NCBI GenBank assembly: GCA_030386875.1
Contig: CM059576.1
Location: 12,057,058 to 12,121,057 of the forward strand
Reading direction: 5' to 3'
From: Morinoia aosen
Taxonomy: Eukaryota; Arthropoda; Malacostraca; Amphipoda; Talitridae
DNA length: 64,000 nucleotides
Positions 4,330 to 55,194 of the stretch are shown piece after piece; positions within the stretch are counted from its first letter, which is position 1; the number at the start of each line of letters is the position of its first letter. Below the pieces are notes generated by a model, which did no database searches, was not told the DNA's origin, and worked only from the letters and a program-made list of their open reading frames with translations. Position numbers and translations under genes: made by a program.

Positions 4330-6310
4330 TGCGTAAACAAACTTACACTCAAAATTGAAATGCATGGCTTGTTCGGCATACAAATATAGAGATAATTTTT
4401 GCACGAGTGCTTTATTTCCTTTGTCTGTTTATACTTTTTAATTTCTTCTGTTCACAGAAATGCCCTTCGGGGTCGTGATAGATCGATTTATAAATCATAA
4501 AGCAAGCGCAATCAATTTGTTTATTTCTGAAATTTGGTGCAGTGTTAACTGATCGCAGAGCTTTAGGTAAAATGTAATGTGTCTTGAGGTTTTGCTTTTT
4601 ATGCAAAAAGTAGAAATAGAAGCCGATATATGTACATGTGCGCATATATGTGTGCGAAACGTGTGCATCTTTACACTGATACATAAACATTTATGTTTGC
4701 GTGCGCACACGTACATACCCACGCACACACCAACACACATATTCATATATATACGTATTGAAAACGAATATAAGAAAAATGCTAATAGACATGAAAAATA
4801 ATCTTACTCTTCCAATATTTAAAATGACAGCCCAAGCTCTGATGAATCGTAAGAAATAACCTGAGGAAAGATAAGGAATAGAAAAGGACTTCGAAAAACG
4901 TATAAATGGAATGGTTTTTTAATTTCCTAAAGGAAATTTTAAGAAAACTCAAGTCACCGCTGAGGAACAACAAAAAAAAAAAAAAACATATATCTTCAAT
5001 ATATATCATATATCATATCTTCTCGATATTCTCTGCAACATCATGCGGACATGGGTACATGGGATAAAATGGAGATACAGTGTAGGCCAGTTACCACTCA
5101 TGATTGACAAATATCTACAAAATTTTGGCAGAAATGCGCAAACAAACATATACTCAACATCAAAATTTGCTTGTACAACATACGGACAGAAAGATAATTT
5201 TACCACGATTCATACGCTCAAATTACGATTAATTTCATTAATTGTATTTGTCATTAATCCGATTCACAGAGACGTCCTCTGGTGTAAGTGGGAGATCTAT
5301 TTTTGAATCATTTCGCTAGTGCAATAAAATTTATTAACCGGATGGTTTTTGTGTAAAGAAATGAAATAGAAACATGAATATCTATTTATGTAGATATATA
5401 TATACCTATATACGTACACACACATATTAATATATGTACTTATTGAGAATGAAATATAAGAAAAAAATACAAATATAAAATAAGAGGATAGAAACAACCT
5501 ACCATCTATTACACCGATAATGACAGTTGAGCTCATTGTAATCCTAAGAAATTATTCGAAAAAAAAAATAACTTAAAGGAAAAGAAGACTTCGGAAAACG
5601 TAAAATGAACTGATTTTTAGTTTCTTCATAGAAATTTTTAAGAAAACTCAGGTTACAGTCAAGAAACAACACAACTCTTCAGCATTATACAGACATGTGT
5701 ACATGGGATAAAATGGAGTAACATTGTGGCCGGATATCACATTTGAGTGGAGAATATTTACAAAATTTGGCACATATAGGTAGATTAAGCAATGGTCCAA
5801 AGTGATAATTTTGATAACAGAAATTAACAGTTTTTTTCGATTTTAAAGTTTAGTGCTGGTGTGCACTGAACGCAAGGAAAAATATTAAAAGACTAAATGA
5901 AAATGGTTAAATTAACCTCTCCCTCTCCTTATCCTTCCGAAATCGATTGAAAACATCTTCGAGAATGATTTTGAAATAACGAGACAACGTTAGCCAAAAT
6001 TTAATTCATTATAAACTTTGCACAATCCTCACATTTATAAACCTGTATATTGGTGTACACACAAAATGTATTTCAGAGTATGTTTTCCATACGGATGTTA
6101 AATATTAACACAGAGAAGAAAAAATAACACAATAAAGATGAGGAAATACTCCTAATTATGGAAAAAAACGTTCATTCTGCTGTATTGAACTCACGGCTGG
6201 GGTGCTCATTATTGTCGACAGAAATAGTTAAGATGAATGCACGAATGGCTTAGCAAACGTAAAATGAAATAGTTTCTAATTTTCTAACAGAAATTTCAGG
6301 AAAATTAAAA
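4330..6310. repeat. diverged tandem duplication, about 2.5-3 copies of 600-800 bp
   Basis: Blocks near 4500-5130, 5300-5780 and 5820-6310 share landmarks in the same order. These are a 'tttNgtgcNgtgt' motif, an AC/AT-rich tract, 'gaatNaaatataagaaaaa', 'gacttcgNaaaacgta', 'tttcNNNNagaaattt', 'aagaaaactcaNgt' and 'acatgggataaaatgga'. The third copy breaks off near 6310, where the LINE begins. Divergence is high, so the duplication is old. Confidence 0.65.
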
Positions 6311-6350
6311 TTTCTGGTAAATGGGAAATTCACACCGAAATGCTGCAGGT

Positions 6351-9311
6351 CTATAGAGATGCAAAATGACGTGACACATTTACTCTAAATTCTTTTACAG
6401 TTTTAGAGTTTTTGATATGCTGGGGAAGCTTGTTCCACAAAAAAGCTCCAGAAACTGAGAGAGCTTTTTGTCCCACGTTAGATGAACGGTAACTGACTAA
6501 AACATCATTCCTCCGATTTGGTTTTTTGTTTGGGATATTAGATGGAAAAAATTTTACCACCTCTGCATTACTTTGGGGGAGGTACAGAGAGGAGAACACT
6601 CGTCGAGCTTTTTGGATCATGAATCTGTTCGGTATTGGGATCCAGTCGAGTTTTCTTAAAAGAGGGGTGACATGATCGTATTTATTGAAATTTCCTTTGC
6701 ACACCACTTTGGCGGCGAAGTTTAGACATTTTTGCAACTCTTCCTGACGATATTGAGGTAAATTTCCCCATACAAGACTGCAGTAGTCCAGGCGCGATAA
6801 AACTAAAGACTGAATCACTAACAACCTAGATTTTTCGTCAAGTGTGTTCTTAGTGCGATGAAAGAACATTAAGGTTCCGTTTATTTTGTTGCACATTGTT
6901 TCGACGTGTGAATTGAAAGTCATATTTTTGTCAAACCAAACACCCAGATTTTTTACCGTCTCTACTGGTTCAATTGTATCGTCTCCAAATGTTAGCTTGA
7001 ATGGTGGTAAATTTTTAGTCGCATTCTGTGATCCAAAAATAATGCATTGTGTTTTACTTGCGTTAAGTTTGAGGCCATTATGGTCATACCACAATTTAAG
7101 GTTTCTCAGAAGGTTTTCAGCGTTGGCTTGTGTTTCTTTTAAATCTGCTGTTGAGCTTGTCATGGCAATTTGTACGTCATCAGCATACATTGAGATTTTT
7201 GTGTTTGCCGGCATGGTGGGGAAATCATTGATGAAAATTGAAAATAAGAGCGGGCCGATGATTGAACCTTGAGGAACGCCAAAATTGTTTGGTATGAATG
7301 ATGACATTTTGTTATTCAAGCACACTGCATGAGAGCGGTTTAGTAGGTAGCTTTCAAACCATTGAGTGTCAATTCTGAGGTTTGAAATTTTTTGTAGAAG
7401 TTTCTTATGCTCAACACTGTCGAAAGCTTTGGAGAGATCAAGCAATAGTAAGAGAGTTAATTTTTTTTGGTCAAGATCATTGTAAATTTTTTCTGTTATG
7501 TTTAACAGGGCGTCCTGAGTACTGGTATTCCTTCTGTAAGCATATTGATTGCGATGCAGTAGATGTGACTCGTCTATGTAAGACGAGAGCTGGTTTGTTA
7601 TTACTTTTTCTAATATTTTGGACATAACAGGCAGGAGACTGATTGGTCTGTAGTTTGACGCTATGTCGATATCACCAGATTTATGTAATGGCTTAATAAT
7701 GGATAATTTCCATTGGTCGGGAAACTTGTTTGTGGCTATAGATGTATTTATTATCAAACGAATGAGGGGTGCTGTGACAGGGAAGCTGTCTTTTATATGT
7801 TGGAGGCTTATGCCATCATGTCCAGTCGCTTTGGTATTCTTTAGTGAGTATAAGATTTTTCGTAACTCTATGACGCTAACCGGCTTTGGTCTCCATTTGT
7901 TTCTACTATTTGGGGATGATACATCGCTCAGATTTGCTCCTGTAGATGTGTCTGAAACTGTCCTGGATACTTCATTGAAAACATCTTCGCCAACTTTTGA
8001 GAAGAAAGTATTAAAGTCATTAGCCATTTTTGAGGGGTTGTCGAAAGTGCTTTTGCACTCCGAGTTTTTATACTGAGCAACTTCTCTAATGATTTCCCAA
8101 GTTCTTTTTGGGTTTTGTTTTGCCGCCAAGAGTTCTTTGTGGAAGTAGTCCCGTTTTGCTTCCTTAACTTTTCTTCGTAGGATCTTCTCATGATCTTTAT
8201 ATAATTTTCGACGCGTACTGTCTGATTTATTCAGTTTGTACTCACGCTGCAAATTTCTTTTAGCTCTGCTCAACCGTTTTATCTCATCTGTTATCCATTT
8301 AGAAATTCTTGGCTTAACTTTCTTCGTAGTGAAAGGTGCGCATTCGTTAAGAGCCGATACGAAATTTTCGTTGAAAAGCGAAACTTGTAAATTGACATCA
8401 TCGGTGTTTTCCATGCCTTGAAATTCACTCCATCTGTCTAATAGCTTTTCTTGAAATATTTCAGGGGAGTAGTGGTTTTTCATGCGATATGAAATGTAAC
8501 TAGATTTCTGTTTCTCTTTTGCAATATTTATTTGGCATTCTACCGAATGGTGATCAGAAAAGGACGGTAAGATTTCTGTGCTGAGTACTGCTTGGGGATT
8601 GTTTGTAATTGCTAGGTCAAGAAGAGTTTTGGAAGCGTTGGTAATTCGCGTTGGTTCTTGGACCATTTGAGAAAGATTAAGTCTGTGCAGCATCTTGCTT
8701 AGCTTGTTGTTTTTATTTGTCAGATCTACGTTAAAATCTCCGAAAACATAGAAAGATTTTTTGGCTGCAGAGATTAATTTAAACGTATTTTCAATGAAAT
8801 CTAATGTTGGACGTAGAGATGCTGACGGATGTCTGTAAAGACTGCCGATAATGAAAGACTTGTGTTTGTTTACCTGAACATTGAGCCAAACCATTTCTAT
8901 GTCTTCGCATTTTTCTTTTATCGGAAATAAGGATGTAGAGTAGACATCTTTGATGAAAATGCATGAACCGCTACCTCTATTACTCTTGACTCCGTCATAA
9001 CGGTACAATGTGTACCCGGCAATGCTGAGATATGAGCTTTCGACTCGTGAATCGAACCATGTTTCAGATACGCATAAAATATCGATATCGTTAGTGATCA
9101 ACATTACTCGTACGTCATCCATTTTACCATTGAGACTGCGAGCATTTATGTGTAATATTTTGATGTTATTTATCTCAATAGGCAGATCTTTAGTGGAGTT
9201 ATTGCATTTTTTAGGTCTAGCAGGGCATTTGATATTCGTCTCTAGGTCTTTATTGCCGCGTTCATTGTTTGTGATTTCAGCTTCAAATTCAATTTGATCA
9301 CTGTTATTTAG
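6351..9311 (-). CDS. LINE ORF2: APE endonuclease plus reverse transcriptase, probably made by readthrough
   Basis: This is the catalytic protein for target-primed reverse transcription: it nicks chromosomal DNA and copies the element RNA. The frame is open for 986 codons after the ORF1 stop. The first in-frame AUG is at 9122; residues below count from it. Endonuclease motifs: an upstream 'HINARSLNGK' whose Asn is 8 residues before the Met, SETW with E20, LYRHPS with Y96, GDFN at 128-131, LLDL with D169, and SDHH with D190/H191. RT motifs: 'LDLSKAFD' with D562, 'GVPQGSIIGPLLFSIF' at 615-630, YADD with D648/D649, and 'GLKLNASKTQC' at 683-693. A CR1-type C-terminal block follows. No internal stop is present. 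Starting at 9122 would delete the conserved Asn motif, so AUG initiation there is unlikely to give an active nuclease. No RNase H or PHD domain was seen. Confidence 0.93.
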   Translation of the reverse strand, partial: LNNSDQIEFEAEITNNERGNKDLETNIKCPARPKKCNNSTKDLPIEINNIKILHINARSLNGKMDDVRVMLITNDIDILCVSETWFDSRVESSYLSIAGYTLYRYDGVKSNRGSGSCIFIKDVYSTSLFPIKEKCEDIEMVWLNVQVNKHKSFIIGSLYRHPSASLRPTLDFIENTFKLISAAKKSFYVFGDFNVDLTNKNNKLSKMLHRLNLSQMVQEPTRITNASKTLLDLAITNNPQAVLSTEILPSFSDHHSVECQINIAKEKQKSSYISYRMKNHYSPEIFQEKLLDRWSEFQGMENTDDVNLQVSLFNENFVSALNECAPFTTKKVKPRISKWITDEIKRLSRAKRNLQREYKLNKSDSTRRKLYKDHEKILRRKVKEAKRDYFHKELLAAKQNPKRTWEIIREVAQYKNSECKSTFDNPSKMANDFNTFFSKVGEDVFNEVSRTVSDTSTGANLSDVSSPNSRNKWRPKPVSVIELRKILYSLKNTKATGHDGISLQHIKDSFPVTAPLIRLIINTSIATNKFPDQWKLSIIKPLHKSGDIDIASNYRPISLLPVMSKILEKVITNQLSSYIDESHLLHRNQYAYRRNTSTQDALLNITEKIYNDLDQKKLTLLLLLDLSKAFDSVEHKKLLQKISNLRIDTQWFESYLLNRSHAVCLNNKMSSFIPNNFGVPQGSIIGPLLFSIFINDFPTMPANTKISMYADDVQIAMTSSTADLKETQANAENLLRNLKLWYDHNGLKLNASKTQCIIFGSQNATKNLPPFKLTFGDDTIEPVETVKNLGVWFDKNMTFNSHVETMCNKINGTLMFFHRTKNTLDEKSRLLVIQSLVLSRLDYCSLVWGNLPQYRQEELQKCLNFAAKVVCKGNFNKYDHVTPLLRKLDWIPIPNRFMIQKARRVFSSLYLPQSNAEVVKFFPSNIPNKKPNRRNDVLVSYRSSNVGQKALSVSGAFLWNKLPQHIKNSKTVKEFRVNVSRHFASL

Positions 9312-9314
9312 TCA
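9309..9314 (-). promoter_or_regulatory. UGA CUA leaky stop joining ORF1 and ORF2 in frame
   Basis: On the minus strand ORF1 ends ...ATC TTG TGA and the next codon is CTA, followed by AAT. ORF2 is in exactly the same frame. UGA followed by CUA is an established high-readthrough context in animal and viral mRNAs. Readthrough would yield a fusion of about 1,784 residues: 797 of ORF1, one inserted amino acid and 986 of ORF2. Its use here is inferred. Confidence 0.7.
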
Positions 9315-11705
9315 CAAGATGGGGGAGGGAGCAACACGAATTTCATCACGCATTTTCAAGAGGGCGCTATAGTGGTCCTGTTTCCGGTGTATGTTTACCG
9401 GAGGACAGTTTATCAGAGCATTTGATGTAGGGGAGATTGTCGTCTTCCAAATCCCATTTTCTCTTTCATCAAATACGTGAATTGGTGTTCTCGTCACATT
9501 AGAAAGTATTTGGGGTATGAGGTCTCCAACTGCGTGATCGAAGACTTTTCTATTGATGTATTTATCGATGAGTTGTTCGAAACTGCCACTGTTCTTGTCA
9601 ACGAATTTTGCATACTGGTCCTTGTTTCTGGAGCTCTCAGTTTTGATGGCTATTTTCAGAGATGTATAATCCCATTTCGATCTTTGTTGTGAAGCAAGCT
9701 GCGTCGTTACGGCGTGGAGGAGACAGTGTCCGTCACCTACAGTGTAAGCAGGCTCCATTTTGAGCGATCGTTTCAAGTCGTCCAGTGTGTTTGCAACGCG
9801 TGTGCAAATTTGATTCACTGTTGGTTTTGCGGTAGCAGTATCGGTTTGATCGTTCAACGGAGGCCTGGCAGAGGCAACAGATTTTTTTTGAATGATTTGA
9901 TTTTTTTGTGAATAGTTTTGAATATCGTTATTAGCTTGACTTTCCTCGGTTCCTGCGTACTCACTGGAAAGTTGAGAATTGGTTGAAAAGAATGGCATGT
10001 CGCAATCACTATTTGTGTCTGTTGCAAGTAACGCAAATTTATTTTTCGTACTGACATTATATTTGTCTGAGATCGAGTCAGGGAAAGGCTCAGGCTTATT
10101 CATGTTCCTCATGTTGTGGGTGGGTGAGTTACTCAGAGCTCTGCTTGATGACGCAATCAATTTTGAAGGATTTGGTGTACCATGTGCAGCGATGTGCATA
10201 GGCTTATAATCTTTTCCAAAGTTTAAAGTGAGACTATTTGTCTCTTTCCGTGAAGTTTTCGATTCATTGGAATGACCTACAATTCCAATTTTTGCTTGAC
10301 ATTTGTTAAAATGAGGACAATATGGCACGGTGATTCGCAATGTTGATTTCATTGCAAGTTGTCCAAGAAAACAGAAGTTTTCTGCCTGGGTGCGAGGCCA
10401 TTGAATGTTATTGAGTGCGTCACCATTTTCATTATCTGGGTAAGTTTGAAATTGAATCAAGTTTAAACCCAGGTTTTTGCAGAAATTCATCGCTTTGTTG
10501 AATTCTTTCGCACTGCAAGCATTGGCGATATAAATAGTAGAAAGTGCGTACTTCCTTACAATTTGTTGTTTGATTCGAGCAAGGTCTGAGGGAGAGTGGC
10601 AGAGACCATCAAAACTTAGTATATAATTTTTAAATCTAGGCATGCAATTTATAGCATGGAGAAGGTCGTCGAAGCGCCCAGATGGAACAGTTTTGATCCA
10701 GCAAGAGCGATCGATGTCCTTCCTTCTGATCGTGCTTAGGATATTGTCACCTAGCAGCAGAGTATCGTAAGGTTCTCGACAATTGGAGTCGACTTCACAA
10801 AAGATACTAGCAGGTACCGCAGTTGCAAGGTCATGAGAACTTATATGTGAATTTAAAGCAAAAAGTTGCTCGGTTAAGTTCTGAATGTTTGATACTGTAG
10901 AGAAAATCGACGACGGGCTAGGAGGCTCACGTTGTCTTAGGGATTTATTGAAAAACGCTGCTGTTAGAGACAAATTGTGAATAATTTCATGAATTTTTTG
11001 AGAGCTTGTGATTTGAAGCGGGTGCAAGTAGCCATTTAAAGAAGTAACAGTGTTTTTTCTATTGCTCTGTACTGAAAATTTCATTTTGTTCTCACAGCTT
11101 GCGCTCTGGGGTAATTTACTGCCAGTATCGGATAGTGCGCGAATATTATCGAACATATGATCTGGAGAATGAGGAGAGTCTACCACGCTTGAAATGTCCT
11201 TATTAATAACAACTATTCTGTCTTGTACCACTGATGAGGATGGCGTTTGTGTCCCCGTCGCTGGCGGACAGTTTGGAGCGTTGTTGTTGACGCAGAGCTG
11301 GGGAGCTGGCACGCTGTTATGCTTGTTCAGATGAGGAGCAGCAGTTGGTTGTGGTGCTGCGGCTGAAACTTCACTGCTTCGAACCTTCAAATGATTGCTG
11401 GAGGTTTGGCAGATATGTTTTCCCTCGTCCTGCGATATTGGTTGCATAGTCTTCACTGACGTTGCTTCGGAAAGTGACACACATTCTCTATCGGAGTTAC
11501 TGGCAGCGGTTAGCAAGTCTCCTGCGTTTTGAGCATTAGAATCTTGTGAGTGAGAGGATGTAGGTTTCCTACTTGCAGGCACTTTGCTTGGTAAGGTCGT
11601 ATTTTTGCCCCTGAAAGAACCATTTTTCCGGGATGTTGTGTAGGGCAACATCTGTGCAGAGAACGGCACTTTCCGGCCTGCGTAGCGAGTCTCGTAGTGA
11701 TGCAT
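9312..11705 (-). CDS. LINE ORF1 protein with SGNH-like and OTU protease-like domains
   Basis: A 797-aa protein opening with a basic, Ser/Thr/Pro-rich, probably disordered region (residues 1-230) of the kind that binds RNA in LINE ORF1 proteins. Residues about 313-450 resemble the GDSL/SGNH esterase fold known from CR1 ORF1 ('LLLGDNIL', 'YILSFDGLCH'), but the usual catalytic Ser after GD is Asn321, so it may be inactive. A 'YCPHFNKCQ' motif follows at 462-470. Residues about 645-785 match the OTU cysteine protease pattern: 'GDGHCLLHAV' with D658 and C661, 'DLIPQILSN..RTPIHVFDE', and 'HRKQDHYSAL' with H778. OTU proteins cleave ubiquitin or polyprotein junctions. Here the domain sits immediately before the leaky stop, so in the fusion it would lie between the RNA-binding part and the endonuclease. 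The Met at 11705 is the first in frame. No CCHC knuckle was seen. Confidence 0.88.
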   Translation of the reverse strand: MHHYETRYAGRKVPFSAQMLPYTTSRKNGSFRGKNTTLPSKVPASRKPTSSHSQDSNAQNAGDLLTAASNSDRECVSLSEATSVKTMQPISQDEGKHICQTSSNHLKVRSSEVSAAAPQPTAAPHLNKHNSVPAPQLCVNNNAPNCPPATGTQTPSSSVVQDRIVVINKDISSVVDSPHSPDHMFDNIRALSDTGSKLPQSASCENKMKFSVQSNRKNTVTSLNGYLHPLQITSSQKIHEIIHNLSLTAAFFNKSLRQREPPSPSSIFSTVSNIQNLTEQLFALNSHISSHDLATAVPASIFCEVDSNCREPYDTLLLGDNILSTIRRKDIDRSCWIKTVPSGRFDDLLHAINCMPRFKNYILSFDGLCHSPSDLARIKQQIVRKYALSTIYIANACSAKEFNKAMNFCKNLGLNLIQFQTYPDNENGDALNNIQWPRTQAENFCFLGQLAMKSTLRITVPYCPHFNKCQAKIGIVGHSNESKTSRKETNSLTLNFGKDYKPMHIAAHGTPNPSKLIASSSRALSNSPTHNMRNMNKPEPFPDSISDKYNVSTKNKFALLATDTNSDCDMPFFSTNSQLSSEYAGTEESQANNDIQNYSQKNQIIQKKSVASARPPLNDQTDTATAKPTVNQICTRVANTLDDLKRSLKMEPAYTVGDGHCLLHAVTTQLASQQRSKWDYTSLKIAIKTESSRNKDQYAKFVDKNSGSFEQLIDKYINRKVFDHAVGDLIPQILSNVTRTPIHVFDERENGIWKTTISPTSNALINCPPVNIHRKQDHYSALLKMRDEIRVAPSPIL

Positions 11706-11830
11706 TGTGCGTTATATTTGCATAGCTATGACTGAATTATGAGAACGATGTAATTTTTGTATATGTATCGCTGATACTGATTTGCTAAATTTTACCTCGC
11801 TCAGCAAGTATTTTATGAAAAGTGAGGTAA

Positions 11831-12162
11831 ATCCAAGCCGTTCATCGATGTATTGAAGCTCACAGCTGAGAGAAGAGGGGTTGCCCTTTAATGCTGGAGG
11901 ACAGAGGCGAGGAACTGGGAGGCTTGGGGTTGGCTGCGAACAATGACATGCAATTTTGCATTTCGCATTTTGTACGACTAGGTCATAGTCTCTGACACGA
12001 GTCGTGATTTTTTTTTCTTTTTTTGGCCGAGAGTTTCTTCCTATTTGAGGGACGTTTTAATTATTCAACAGAATGAGATCTGGTACAAAATGTGATATGA
12101 TGATATTGAGGGACAGCACAATTTTTAAATTTTAGTTTCATTGATTATAAAGAAAGCGTATC
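11831..12162. other. flank of LINE, nothing recognised
   Basis: May include the LINE 5' UTR. It holds a T-rich run and no ORF of note. Confidence 0.4.
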
Positions 12163-12297
12163 TTAGTATTCAGCCTCATCTTCAGTCTTTTCCTTCGTTC
12201 GGATGGGCTTCCTTTCGCTGCGGTAATTTTGCAGGAAATTTTGCAGGATCAAGAAACACATCGTCAGTAGGATGACTAACGCTTTTAGTGAGAACAT
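12163..12297 (-). CDS. possible 44-aa single-pass microprotein
   Basis: A short ORF starts MFSLKALVILLTMCFLILQN, a hydrophobic segment long enough for a membrane anchor or signal peptide. A highly charged tail follows (YRSERKPIRTKEKTEDEAEY) up to a TAA. The layout is that of small mitochondrial or ER membrane microproteins. I do not recognise the family, and an ORF this short can arise by chance. It lies about 0.5 kb upstream of the LINE on the same strand and could instead be part of that element's flank. No clear polyadenylation signal follows. Confidence 0.25.
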   Translation of the reverse strand: MFSLKALVILLTMCFLILQNFLQNYRSERKPIRTKEKTEDEAEY

Positions 12298-15200
12298 AAT
12301 TGAATTACAAATTCAAGGTTAGGTGCACTTTTTATAGTATTTTCCCTGGTGATTGTAAATGTTTTTCAACTTCTCGTTCACCCGTTGTTCTTACTGGTAG
12401 CTCACTTCAAACTTTCTGTGTATTCAAACTATTCGGTGTCAGTAGTGAAACGGAGGTACGAAACACAATAATTCTTTCGTGCACATTTGCCGTCTCGGCC
12501 CCGTAGGAAGTGAACAAAAACTTAACTGAGAGGTTTGACATTACCAAAAATCAAAAACAAACGTAATTTCTTTGGTTGCTTGAAGCGGAAAAGTCCAGGT
12601 TTTGCTATGCTCTGAAACGGTTAGAGGACGGGAGGCAGGTGTACGGGAAAGGGGGGGGGGGAGGGTGCGGGCGCGGTGAGGGGAGACTGAGGGAACAAGC
12701 TGAGCACACCATTTCACACCCCTTGCCAGCACTGCTTCGTTGGCTTTTCATTTAAAGTGCACTGATTTAAGCAGAAATAAGACAAAAGTTATTTTTTCCT
12801 TTTCGTTGTTCCACAGGTAGCAAACACATTCACTGATAGTATAATTTTTATGCATGGCTAGGTTATTTCCTCCTTGCAATTTCAACAATTACCGCACCAT
12901 TTCCCCGCACGTCCGACCGCGACCGAGTCCGACCTTAACAGGTTGAGGTGACAGCTACATTACAGTGTACACGGTGACAGTTTATCATCAAATGTGTCAA
13001 TGATGTACTTGCTTTATATTAAACGGAGTAGAATCAATAAATTCAATGAAAAATCCATCTTTTCGTTTTTGCATTAACCTAAGCGCCACACATATTTCAT
13101 TAAAACACAATCAAAGAGGGCTCGAAGCGTGGCAGTAATAAGGTTAAGAACCACAGATGTAGACTCTCGAGAATAAAGAAAGTAAACACCTGTGATGCGC
13201 CTCGACTTGCTGGAATAATTTTTTTTCCGGTAGTTACGCACTATTGCTGAAATTTTCAAATCAATGCACGGAAATTATATCGTTTTCTTCATTACTGCTC
13301 GTACTGTTACATGGTGATGAACTAATGATGTCGGATACACCACACTGATGAGTAAACATTCATTTGAAGTTTTCCGTCGGTCTTCAAATTCGAGACGGTT
13401 TTCTCAGCCGTGTATTCCAGTTGTGCGGCTGCCATGAACTTCATGTCTTGAATATACCAACCATTTAGCTCTTGCGCCTTCAAAAATGCTGTAGCCTCAA
13501 AATGTTATTTCCAACTTCGACATTCGCGAGTCCAAATATGTGTGAAAAAAAGTTCGTCAAAGACATGAGCTATCATTTTATTTGAAAATCCGATATTTTC
13601 ATACAATTGTTTTTATTTCAAATCAAGTTTTAACCACTATTTTAACTCTCCACAAAATTAAGGTAACGTAACAACCCAATCATTAGTTTTGATGGTTGAA
13701 TTTTAAACGAATTGACACACAATTAAAATTTTGTAAATCACTAAACGATGGACCCTCCTCCGTAGCAAGCATTACATTTCAGCAACATATTTACAACCTA
13801 CACAATTTGAACACAAACGCTGCAAAATGAAAGTGCGCTAATCTGTTTGTGAACTGGTGGGATGAATTTCTTGGATCTGAAGCCACTTGCATAGCCCACA
13901 GCTGGAGTAAATAAATTTAGCTCAACGCAAGCAGGCGAGCAAAGACTGCAGCAACAGTCGCATAAGTTACATTCAATACAGCACCATATTTGCAGTCCTC
14001 ATAAAATCATAAAACGAAGAGGATATAGACATGGGCTATAATCTCGGTTGATGTTACTAACACAACGCGGCAGTCTTACGTTATGTTATCAAGTCATGAC
14101 CAGCTGAGCGCTTGCTGCCTTGTAACATTTGAGATCAAATGTATGCGCTGACGTTTCCAAACGTTTAAGGATACGATAAATGAAAGTTTTCTTAGCTCTG
14201 TGAAGTGTGATCCAACTCGTGAGAATTCTCACATGTCTCTTTAACATCAAAATTTAGTTTTCATTGTTTGCACATTGAAAAAATTTAAAAAGCCACTGTA
14301 AACATTCTTTTTGGAGCGAAAATTTTTAATTTTTTTCTCAATCGTGGGCCACTTTGTACTGTAATTGTACCGCACAGATTCCCTGCATGTTCATTTGTCA
14401 CGAGGGGTGTGTCCCCTTGCTAATTTGGCTTGACAAATTATTGTTATAATTTTTTAGCTATGTATAGAACTTGATTTAATTTACCGCAATATTTAGATTA
14501 TATTTTCATGATACAAAAACTGTTTTCAAAGAATTTGACCTAATCGAGACTATGTTTAATCAGATTATTAGGTTCACTCCCCCCCCCCCCCCTCAACCCT
14601 TGTGGATGTTTTGCCCTCAATGCAGGTGGTCAGTAGTCGTGTTAGAGCGAGCCCTCGCGTTTCTGACACTAAATTATTTACATGATTAGTTTCCAATCTT
14701 TTCTCATCAACAGATGCTCAATATAAATATATTCTTTTATTTCATTGATGTAGATCTTTTTCCCAAGGCCTCTGCACCTTACACGTCTTTCATTTCATAA
14801 ATCCTAATTATTCACATTTCTTATTCCCACACTGCCACACATGAGGCACATTGCTTTATGCCACTACTTTACAGTTTATTTTTACGGCTTATTTCTATCG
14901 GGGTTACATTTCTCAACTTTTACCTTCCCACACGTGAAATGTTTATGCTTGACACTCGTTTTTTGCGCCGAACTTGCAAAGATATTTTGCGCAGAACTGT
15001 AATTTTAATTAAGAAACGCTTCTCATGAAAATTTCTGACTATTGCGACACGAATGAAGGACCAACGAAGATACGAGTCTTAGCGCCTCCTTCCCACTTCG
15101 ATATATTTTTCCGACCATGTGTGGCAGGAGAGACCTCCTCCCCTCATCCCTCGTGTCTCTCTCCTCACGTGCACGGGATGTGTTGGTGCCTCGAGAGCGT

Positions 15201-51392: not shown

Positions 51393-53746
51393 TGATTCGA
51401 GTTCGCATCATGAGTCAAATTTCTTCTTTCCTTATTAAGATCCCAACTCTGGAGCAGGCTTAGTCAAGTTTTGAATCAAATATTGAAGTTCAGTTCAGCC
51501 AATTATGTTAAGGTGTTAAGAATACATTGATTTCATTCAGACTTGAAGGTGGAGACCTTAAAGATTCGATACAAGCGACATACGATAGACCCGTCATAAA
51601 CTATTCCGAGGGGAAATACTCCGAGAAATATTCCGAGGGGAAAACCCTACAACCTTCCCTTGATCTTGATCAATTCCAGGCTCCAAAGCATTCCTTTCGA
51701 CCCAGAGGTCCTCGCAATTGAGCTCCAGAATGAAATTCAAGCAATCCTAGCCCTCGCGTAAGGCCTTCTCATCCTTGTTACTCTTTCGATTGAGCGAAGC
51801 ACATTCTTCGAATTCCAACCGTTTTGTTAAGAGAAAACTCTCCAAATGAGTTTCACTTACCATTCCCAGAGAGTTCTGTGTTATCTACAATACCGCTGTC
51901 TTCTTCTTCTTTAATATCAATCTCGCTACTTGTCTTTGAGATAATTAATTTTTTCAAGCCTATCTGCACGAGAATACTAGGTTAGGACTTTGATTTTTTA
52001 CTCGAGACTTTCTTGTAATCATCAGAGCTGTTCAAATTTAACCTTTTCCGCCTGATGAATGGGACAAGTTAATCAGAAACCTAGGGCATTTTTACGCAAA
52101 GATTGCAGACTCTGTCTCGTGGAGGAAATCGAAAACAGAGCGAGGAATTTTAATTGAATTTTCTTTGCGAAACATAAAGATTTAAGAGTACATTATTAAT
52201 GAGCTGCATTTCTTTTTAGAATTTCTGTATTGGCAGGAAGGAAGTGCACAGCAGAATTGAATTGAATCAACGAATAATATGAATTTAATAAGAAGTTATT
52301 GTTAGCAATGATGGATTACGTTACACTGTAGTCTAATTATGAATAGTAATTTAGGCTAATTATTTACCCAAGTTCAGCCAAATTAAAGTCATTTTGCCTA
52401 ATTACTTCAACTTTTCAAGGTTTCTCTCCAGCAGACGTCACAGTTCGTGATAATCAAGAATTAAAAAGTTAAATAAGTTTAATTGACGCATTCTGTGAAT
52501 CACGAGTCCACATCCTGAAGGGTATTGGGCGAATAAAAAACTAGCCAAGAAGAAGAAAACAAACATTTCTTAGATGCAATAGGTCCGTGCTAATCAACCA
52601 TTTCAGTGGTGACAGGATGGATAAATATATAATAATTGCCCGCCACAAAAGAATGGAAATTCATCTGCAGAATATGTACCTTGCTCTGAACATGCCAGCC
52701 GACCTTGTTGAGTCTGAGCTGTTGAGATGTTCAGTGAAAATATTTCTGGGTTAAATTTTCGAATTTGATATACTTAAATGAACATTCAACGAAATTTCAT
52801 TTGGTTATATCAGATTGAATTAGACAAATAATAAATTCCGAACGCTACCCCTCAGTGTTATTGAGAGCTTTCCAACAAAAAATGCGTCACCGTAATCAGG
52901 GATATCGATAACTCATATCCGCCAAAAATTCAAAGTTGTTGTGAAAAATTTCGAATACATCAATTCTACAAAAAATACACCAACCAACCTAGGATATGAT
53001 ATGGAATACATTAAATCAACGAAATATGCGTCACCGCATGGCAGAATATCACAACCGTGAAATTTAAAGGAAAAAATACATCATCACAATATGATATCGA
53101 ATTCGTCAAATCTGCTGGAAAATATATATCACCTTTACATAAAATATTACAAACGTCAAACCTATGGAGTTTGCCACAAATTGCAGAAGCGAAGAGATGA
53201 ACTGCATGGTTATCCAAACAGAAGATGTGAAGAAATTTCAGCGGTGACGTTGAACGTAACCGCTGCACAAACATTCGAGGCGATGTGATCTTACGAGAGT
53301 GACGCCATTTCCGCCGTACAGCCTCCAACGGATTGTGCTCGCTGGGTAGCATAAATCATTACAGTGTGTAGATCATCTTCGTACCTAACTGATTTCCAAT
53401 GTTTGTGAAAGTTCTCGTTCTTGAAGTACAGTTCACATATATGAACTTCACGTCGCGGAGTAAAGCATTTCAAGGGATTGAAGTCAGGAAGTTGGCAAGT
53501 CATTTTGCGAGCGTAATTCAAGTTCAAGTCGACTTGATATTCAAAAAATTAGATATGCGTTTCGGATCCATTTTTCGACATTTTGATCAGCATAAATAGC
53601 GCATACTGCTTCCATGCTGCACTGTTTTATTCACGATATATCATCCATTCAATTTATCCATCCTGTCCATATGGTGCACCAAGCGCAGCAGCCCCTCCTC
53701 ATTGCAATCGGCTTCGGAATATACTTGCAACTGACTTTCCTGTTGT
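51393..53746. other. mostly non-coding; weak 90-100-bp periodicity near 52870-53170
   Basis: Words such as 'gcgtcacc', 'aatacatca', 'gatatcgaattcgtcaaat' and 'aaaatatatatcacc' recur loosely at 52870-53170. Frames of 65-113 aa lack domains. Confidence 0.35.
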
Positions 53747-54950
53747 TCATATCGTACCCTATATACACCAATATGTACTCTCCCATTCATACTGCACTCT
53801 ATACACATCAATATGTACTCTATCGTTCATACTACACCCTATACACATCAGTGCGTACTCTCCCGTTCATACTGCACTCTATACACATCAAAATGTACTC
53901 TCCCGTTCATACTGCACTCTAAACACATCAATATGTACTCTCCCGTTCATACTGCACTCTATACACATCAATATGTACTCTCCCGTTCATACTGCACTCT
54001 ATACACATCAATATGTACTCTCCCGTTCATACTGCACTCTATACACATCAATATGTACTCTCCCGTTCATACTGCACTCTATACACATCAATATGTACTC
54101 TCCCGTTCATACTGCACTCTATACACATCAATGTGTACTCTCCCGTTCATACTGCACTCTATACACATCAATGTGTACTCTCCCGTTCATACTGCACTCT
54201 ATACACATCAATATGTACTCTCCCGTTCATACTGCACTCTATACACATCAAAATGTACTCTCCCGTTCATACTGCACTCTAAACACATCAATATGTACTC
54301 TCCCGTTCATACTGCACTCTATACACATCAATATGTACTCTCCCGTTCATACTGCACTCTATACACATCAATATGTACTCTCCCGTTCATACTGCACTCT
54401 ATACACATCAATATGTACTCTCCCGTTCATACTGCACTCTATACACATCAATATGTACTCTCCCGTTCATACTGCACTCTATACACATCAATGTGTACTC
54501 TCCCGTTCATACTGCACTCTATACACATCAATGTGTACTCTCCCGTTCATGCTGCACTCTATACACATCAATGTGTACTCTCCCGTTCATACTGCACTCT
54601 ATACACATCAATGTGTACTCTCCCGTTCATACTGCACTCTATACACATCAATGTGTACTCTCCCGTTCATACTGCACTCTATACACATCAATATGTACTC
54701 TCCCGTTCATACTGCACTCTATACACATCAATATGTACTCTCCCGTTCATACTGCACTCTATACACATCAATGTGTACTCTCCCGTTCATACTGCACTCT
54801 ATACACATCAATGTGTACTCTCCCGTTCATACTGCACTCTATACACATCAATGTGTACTCTCCCGTTCATACTGCACTCTATACACATCAATGTGTACTC
54901 TCCCGTTCATACTGCACTCTATACACATAAATATCTATTCTCCCTTTCAC
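53747..54950. repeat. 40-bp satellite, about 30 units, with 360-bp higher-order duplication
   Basis: The unit is 'atacacatcaatatgtactc' plus 'tcccgttcatactgcactct', with an exact 40-bp period and very low divergence. The pair of variants aaaatg...ctaaacacatca at 53881-53940 recurs exactly at 54241-54300, 360 bp or 9 units later. The plus strand of the unit has no stop codon, so frames of up to 489 aa run through it. Confidence 0.97.
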
Positions 54951-55194
54951 ATCGCAGTTTACACATCTTGGTTACTATTCATGTGTTCGTTCCATGGGTG
55001 CTTGTTTATGCAATTTTTTACAAGGAAACCGAAAGAAATTCTTAATGCTTAATCTCACGATATTTTCCAGTTGAGGTATTTTCATCAACTGTACAGAGGG
55101 GCTCATAAGAAGTCCCGTGTTTTGTATTTTCCCTCAGCACAAACCGCTTCAGTGGATGTGATCGTAGATGTCAGCACCAAATGTGCAAGACTGG

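Follow-up and report, generated by a model that had tools for sequence, protein, structure and literature searches.

An in-frame UGA between ORF1 and ORF2 in a LINE family of the amphipod Morinoia aosen, a candidate for programmed stop codon readthrough

Introduction

A long-standing question about long interspersed nuclear elements (LINEs) is how a dicistronic RNA yields a small amount of their ORF2 protein. For translation of the second open reading frame (ORF), reinitiation and 2A peptides have been named as mechanisms, and bypassing has been considered (PMC5972666, PMC5009743; here and below, papers are cited by their PubMed Central identifiers). In the element Zorro3, multiple stop codons lie between ORF1 and ORF2, and the first ATG of ORF2 is needed (PMC7175516, PMC1965478). 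Here we describe a young LINE family represented in a stretch of 64,000 nucleotides (hereafter the window) from the talitrid amphipod Morinoia aosen (GenBank assembly GCA_030386875.1, contig CM059576.1, positions 12,057,058 to 12,121,057 of the forward strand), in which ORF2 follows ORF1 in the same frame after an in-frame UGA. To judge from its sequence, this LINE probably makes ORF2 by programmed readthrough of that UGA, which lies in a UGA-C context. The initial annotation of the window, which had drawn attention to the junction, stated that known LINEs mainly use reinitiation or overlapping start and stop signals; reinitiation is indeed named for SART1 and proposed for mammalian LINE-1, but 2A is named beside it (PMC5972666).

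In reporters of Ustilago maydis, the hexamer UGA CUA is enough to cause readthrough, and in HeLa cells UGA CU, helped further by A, has this effect (PMC4207609). High readthrough in human cells has UGA CUA as its consensus, the top levels being reached with G as the next base (PMC4359377). A C after UGA promotes the binding of near-cognate tRNA, and upstream bases matter too (PMC12233894).

Organization of the Element

The element is an apurinic/apyrimidinic endonuclease (APE)-type retrotransposon without long terminal repeats (non-LTR), that is, a LINE, as is clear from the endonuclease and reverse transcriptase domains of its ORF2 and from its many dispersed copies. It lies on the minus strand of the window. 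ORF1 (9312–11711) has 799 codons from stop to stop and terminates in UGA; its reading frame is open from 11711 to 9315, and its first ATG is codon 3 (11705–11703), with A at −3. The inter-ORF stop (9312–9314, read as TGA from 9314 to 9312) is directly followed by a CUA codon (9309–9311, read as CTA from 9311 to 9309), and ORF2 (6351–9311) continues in the ORF1 frame for 986 codons, up to a TAG at 6353–6351. The window copy has no further in-frame stop in either ORF, so that the UGA CUA junction, the shared frame and the otherwise uninterrupted ORFs are all as first annotated. The claim that UGA CUA is the best-known leaky context needs some qualification: the full context here is UGA CUA A, which contains the published readthrough-prone core motif, but the strongest form of that motif is UGA CUA G (PMC4207609, PMC4359377).

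A linker of 53 codons without in-frame AUG (9153–9311) separates the UGA from HINARSLNGK (9123–9152, ORF2 codons 54–63), the start of the APE-type endonuclease; we take the Asn of HIN to be a catalytic residue of APE endonucleases. The linker contains out-of-frame AUGs at nucleotides 46, 83 and 104 past the stop. The first in-frame AUG of ORF2 is codon 64 (9122–9120), which lies beyond HINARSLNGK, as had been noted, and inside the endonuclease domain, since the Pfam match of the latter (PF03372, 36.7 bits vs. a cut-off of 24.5) covers ORF2 residues 56–254 (8550–9146). The reverse transcriptase domain (6936–7682, residues 544–792) matches PF00078 with 133 bits vs. a cut-off of 29.6, and PF14529 also lies above its curated cut-off in ORF2. 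Near the C-terminus of ORF1, just upstream of the UGA, there is an OTU-like cysteine protease domain (9444–9737, ORF1 residues 659–756; PF02338, 29.4 bits vs. a cut-off of 23.3), a region that also gave a weak match with VCPIP1 in the Protein Data Bank (E 0.0093, about 40 residues around GDGHCLLHAV).

Conservation of the Stop in Young Copies

The host genome, 1.99 Gb in 29 contigs, was searched for further copies of the junction. It contains hundreds of near-identical copies of the element: the junction was found 962 times with at most two mismatches, and TGACTA is present in all of the 100 matches listed, which are the best 100 of the 962 and have no mismatch in their flanks. A stricter pattern, in which the stop codon is flanked by 30 fixed bases that include CTA, one of them given as Y, and no mismatch is allowed, was used to count TGA together with the single-base variants of the stop codon, two- and three-base changes being outside the count. 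TGA was present in 749 of 759 such exact-flank copies, the other 10 having one stop base changed (2 TGG, 2 CGA, 1 GGA, 1 AGA, 1 TCA and 3 TAA), which amounts to a sense codon in 7/759 and TAA in 3/759. Because CTA is fixed in the pattern, these counts are no test of CTA conservation. In the young copies that were fetched, CTA follows TGA in 31/31, window included. A sub-group with 93–98% identity to the window across the junction piece was represented by 20 fetched loci, and all 18 that bear the junction have TGA, followed by CTA in 17 cases and CTG in 1. The two loci of this sub-group without the junction, L138 and L147, show similarity to the element that starts shortly before HINARSL, with unrelated sequence upstream; this boundary suggests either 5′ truncation or recombination in the linker.

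Besides the window, 9 of 29 young copies can be read without a stop in both directions from the UGA up to the limits of the 3.5 kb fetched, and the arrangement thus belongs to recently multiplied elements. Given the TGA of 749/759 copies, the 7 sense copies look like mutations that occurred after insertion. The initial annotation had judged a lone nonsense mutation to be unlikely, and a random nonsense mutation in a dead copy can now be rejected: 749 exact-flank copies have the same stop, with just 10 one-base changes, and two diverged older subfamilies are alike. Within this genome, then, the copies counted do not mainly carry a sense codon or UAA at the site.

As a separate observation, 6 of the 29 young copies (L005, L006, L007, L009, L016 and L022) share a frame change in ORF1 at a run of A. 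The stop that appears some 204 codons upstream of the junction in these six copies results from the changed length of the A run, with no new stop codon. This shared change possibly reflects recurrent slippage or a multiplying sub-group that is defective in ORF1.

Two Older Subfamilies with the Same Arrangement

A motif search from which the young codons were excluded, plus follow-up searches, revealed two older subfamilies, B and C. A total of 126 loci were classed, of which L031, L033, L079, L082, L083 and L084 matched no subfamily, while L032, L038, L089, L094 and L119, aligned over less than 400 bases, were dropped. The young group, called A, has 31 members including the window itself (L001). 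Two loci, L034 and L035, were excluded from the counts, and L039 and L040, which are the same places as L035 and L034, respectively, were not classed. In both L034 and L035 the B stop site reads TGG and is preceded, 9 codons upstream, by a TAA; their ORF2 is frameshifted, so they were read as decayed. These two loci lie 2.3 Mb apart on contig C9 (70.02 and 72.37 Mb) and differ by 1 base in 3020, a near-identity that suggests segmental duplication.

Subfamily B has TGA at the stop site in 35/39 copies, the others having CGA, CGA, TCG and TGG; the codon after TGA is CAA in 28, CAG in 6 and AAA in 1, and C is thus the next base in 34/35. Subfamily C has TGA in 42/43 copies, the other being AGA, with CAA in 41 and GAA in 1, and so C next in 41/42. 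The three subfamilies have diverged: over the first 16 endonuclease codons the median pairwise difference is 21% for A–B, 25% for A–C and 25% for B–C, and the linkers of B and C diverge by a median of 37%. Linker length is nevertheless similar (53 codons in A, 56 in B and 56 in C), with ORF2 in the same frame in all three. An in-frame ATG was found in the linker of 0/31 A and 1/43 C copies, whereas those of B are scattered, with a maximum of 6/39 at one codon. The UGA, mostly with C next, the shared frame and the lack of a conserved in-frame AUG before HINARSL are therefore common to three subfamilies of one genome. The expectation that related copies would keep UGA CUA held only in part: the young subfamily keeps it, but the older ones have mostly UGA CAA and share only the UGA-C core. 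The shared frame and the lack of a conserved in-frame AUG were borne out in all three.

Counted from the H of a conserved HYS, the stop comes after 20 codons in the reference of A, 18 in that of B and 19 in that of C. The aligner placed the TGA of the young element opposite a codon that lies downstream of the stop in B, and the alignment of the A stop with those of B and C is uncertain; a common origin of these stops and a shifted stop are consequently both possible. In subfamily C (L069–L128) we also observed an AUG that overlaps the stop (AUGA), in a frame different from that of ORF2, and of the intact C linkers listed, most contain out-of-frame AUGs. No viral contig matched peptide patterns taken from ORF2.

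Evidence for and against Readthrough

The arrangement creates a puzzle: how could the young element produce a complete endonuclease with no AUG upstream of it? Either ribosomes pass the UGA, or they start at a non-AUG codon, or another mRNA is needed. The shared frame, the UGA-C of three subfamilies and the three out-of-frame AUGs of the young linker favor passing the UGA. In the mechanism that we propose, most ribosomes would halt at the UGA and release an ORF1 protein with the OTU domain near its C-terminus, while a few would insert an amino acid at the UGA and read on through a poorly conserved linker of about 53–56 codons; the product would be a low-abundance ORF1–ORF2 fusion with endonuclease and reverse transcriptase. 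From the features of the DNA we infer that such readthrough occurs, that its rate is low and that the fusion is the active protein. The suggestion of readthrough made in the initial annotation thus gains support from the genome: TGA predominates in exact-flank copies, and the same frame without a conserved AUG recurs in three subfamilies.

If ribosomes traverse the linker, its sequence might be expected to evolve as a coding one. The comparison of B with C, for which only open, ungapped linkers were used (27/39 B and 23/43 C), gave in frame a nonsynonymous divergence (dN) of 0.44 and a synonymous divergence (dS) of 0.87, with a ratio of 0.51, vs. ratios of 0.73 and 0.60 out of frame. When the most frequent base of B is set against that of C at each site of the linker, the two differ at 16 first, 16 second and 27 third codon positions. 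We regard this as mild support for translation of the linker.

Several findings weigh against readthrough and have to be set beside this evidence. The 749 young copies, coming from few sources, count as about one observation, and the three subfamilies share ancestry and are not independent of each other; moreover, the context of B and C, mostly UGA CAA, is less established than UGA CUA. Constraint on the linker is only mild when its dN/dS of 0.51 is compared with the 0.15 of the endonuclease start, and in a neutral simulation without indels 56 codons would stay open with a probability of about 0.20 at the B–C divergence. Among variants present in at least 4 copies, the linker of B has 11 synonymous, 20 nonsynonymous and 1 stop, and that of C 6 synonymous and 7 nonsynonymous, whereas synonymous variants outnumber nonsynonymous ones in the ORF1 tail (12/7) and the endonuclease start (12/6) of B. 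One linker codon is TAG in 4/39 B copies, an in-frame ATG is present at codon 27 or codon 28 in up to 6/39 B copies, and 1-base insertions occur at one A-rich place of the linker in 7/43 C copies. RNA structure past the stop does not exceed that of shuffled sequences in the window (z 0.13 and −0.37), nor does a clear signal emerge from A or B, with 12 copies of each (mean z −0.55 to −0.03); 12 C copies show mild structure at 80 nucleotides (mean z −1.75) that is gone at 150 nucleotides (−0.20). Finally, the out-of-frame AUGs of the young linker open frames of just 7, 3 and 2 codons, and the near-cognate, in-frame codons ATT 7 and ATC 13 precede the first of them, so that these AUGs exclude no other starts.

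Such other starts underlie the alternative that ORF2 begins alone at a non-AUG codon of the linker, through termination-reinitiation or internal entry, with the shared frame being incidental. The near-cognate codons in frame in the young linker include ACG 25 and CTG 43 besides the two just mentioned, an in-frame CTG flanked by A at −3 and G at +4 was identified by eye in B and C, and the mild constraint on the linker fits a partly untranslated sequence. The young CTG, however, lies elsewhere, has a poor context with G at −3 and C at +4, and is preceded by out-of-frame AUGs. The UGA-C stop and shared frame of three subfamilies would also be left unexplained; we therefore hold a non-AUG start to be unlikely, if worth keeping in mind. 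Termination-reinitiation at an AUG, a route known from other LINEs, has the precedent of SART1, which uses it, and of mammalian LINE-1, for which it is proposed (PMC5972666), and it could appeal to the AUGA of subfamily C and to the in-frame ATG that some B copies have at one linker codon. Yet the first in-frame AUG of the young element lies past HIN and within the endonuclease domain, B and C have no conserved in-frame AUG, and the AUG of the AUGA in C is out of the ORF2 frame. The young copy in the window has no ORF2-frame AUG before codon 64 that could serve a stop-start of the SART1 kind, and this route appears quite improbable.

The stop could also be removed, by splicing or in a separate transcript, or else rare copies with a sense codon, such as the 7 found among exact-flank copies, could supply ORF2 in trans. 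These copies are scattered and of five kinds and look like mutations after insertion, whereas a source with a sense codon would be expected to leave many similar copies; we give this explanation very little credence. Decoding of the UGA, which is the selenocysteine codon, as selenocysteine is harder still to believe: the stop sits in a poorly conserved tail, and a search of positions 5000–13500 of the window for families of selenocysteine insertion sequences, with E up to 1, found none, the sole two matches being microRNA families below their cut-offs. A general reassignment of UGA to tryptophan was also considered and is rejected for this element, because its 1785 codons include 17 TGG and a single UGA, the one at the junction. 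Readthrough of the UGA consequently remains the interpretation that we prefer.

Implications

Young copies that have UGA CUA and no usable AUG, some of them with both ORFs open over the length fetched, render the question of how LINEs translate ORF2 a testable one. Our literature search covered readthrough and stop codons between LINE ORFs as well as OTU domains, Zorro3 and types of ORF1; among the matches listed, no report of stop codon readthrough between LINE ORFs was recognizable from title or the start of the abstract, most subscription journals and Repbase being outside the scope of this search. If readthrough does take place, the retroviral way of controlling the ratio of structural to enzymatic proteins would enter the LINEs, for which the literature searched showed no such control.

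The position of the OTU domain invites a further thought. In some retroviral plans a protease sits before the stop. It is conceivable, though speculative and on balance doubtful, that a LINE lineage independently reached the retroviral gag-stop-pol plan, with obligate UGA-C readthrough holding the ORF1–ORF2 fusion at a constant low ratio and the OTU domain either freeing the endonuclease and reverse transcriptase from the fusion or shielding it from ubiquitin-dependent degradation. Among transposons, Ginger1 and some Helitrons are described as having OTU domains (PMC2836005), and for LINEs an Ulp1-like cysteine protease is described from a Utopia and from nematode NeSL elements (PMC4640811). 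A term search gave 0 occurrences of OTU in the text of a survey of ORF1 in the Jockey superfamily (PMC4120745).

Elsewhere in the window, positions 53553–55052 of the plus strand hold long open frames that overlap one another and cover a tandem repeat with YTHQ/LSRSYCTLYTS units, which looks like a minisatellite and not a gene.

Comparison with Known Systems

The translational plan proposed here may be compared with several described systems. Elements in which 2A (StopGo) is at work skip a peptide bond, with no stop codon involved. Such sea urchin and trypanosome non-LTR elements resemble the present LINE in resorting to non-canonical translation (PMC5972666), and differ from it in that a stop codon is present here. 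The genes of fungi and animals that undergo readthrough, such as LDHB and AQP4, have the same core motif, UGA CUA (PMC4207609, PMC4359377); however, the extension of LDHB measures 18 nucleotides, whereas here it would be 986 codons, and A follows CUA instead of the G of the strongest motif.

The gammaretroviral gag-pol of Moloney murine leukaemia virus is alike in having one in-frame stop between an abundant first protein and the enzymes (PMC5009743), and in both cases readthrough would set the protein ratio. In contrast, the virus is a retrovirus that uses UAG with a 3′ pseudoknot (PMC5009743), while the present element is an APE-type LINE with UGA-C and no clear structure. With regard to LINEs themselves, the element shares with those of the CR1, L2 and Jockey groups, compared by domains, an ORF2 with APE endonuclease and reverse transcriptase. 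It shares with SART1 and mammalian LINE-1 the condition of a two-ORF LINE whose second ORF is made from the same RNA (PMC5972666), but these restart at the AUG of ORF2, whereas the young family of Morinoia has no AUG upstream of its endonuclease and would reach that enzyme by passing through the UGA.

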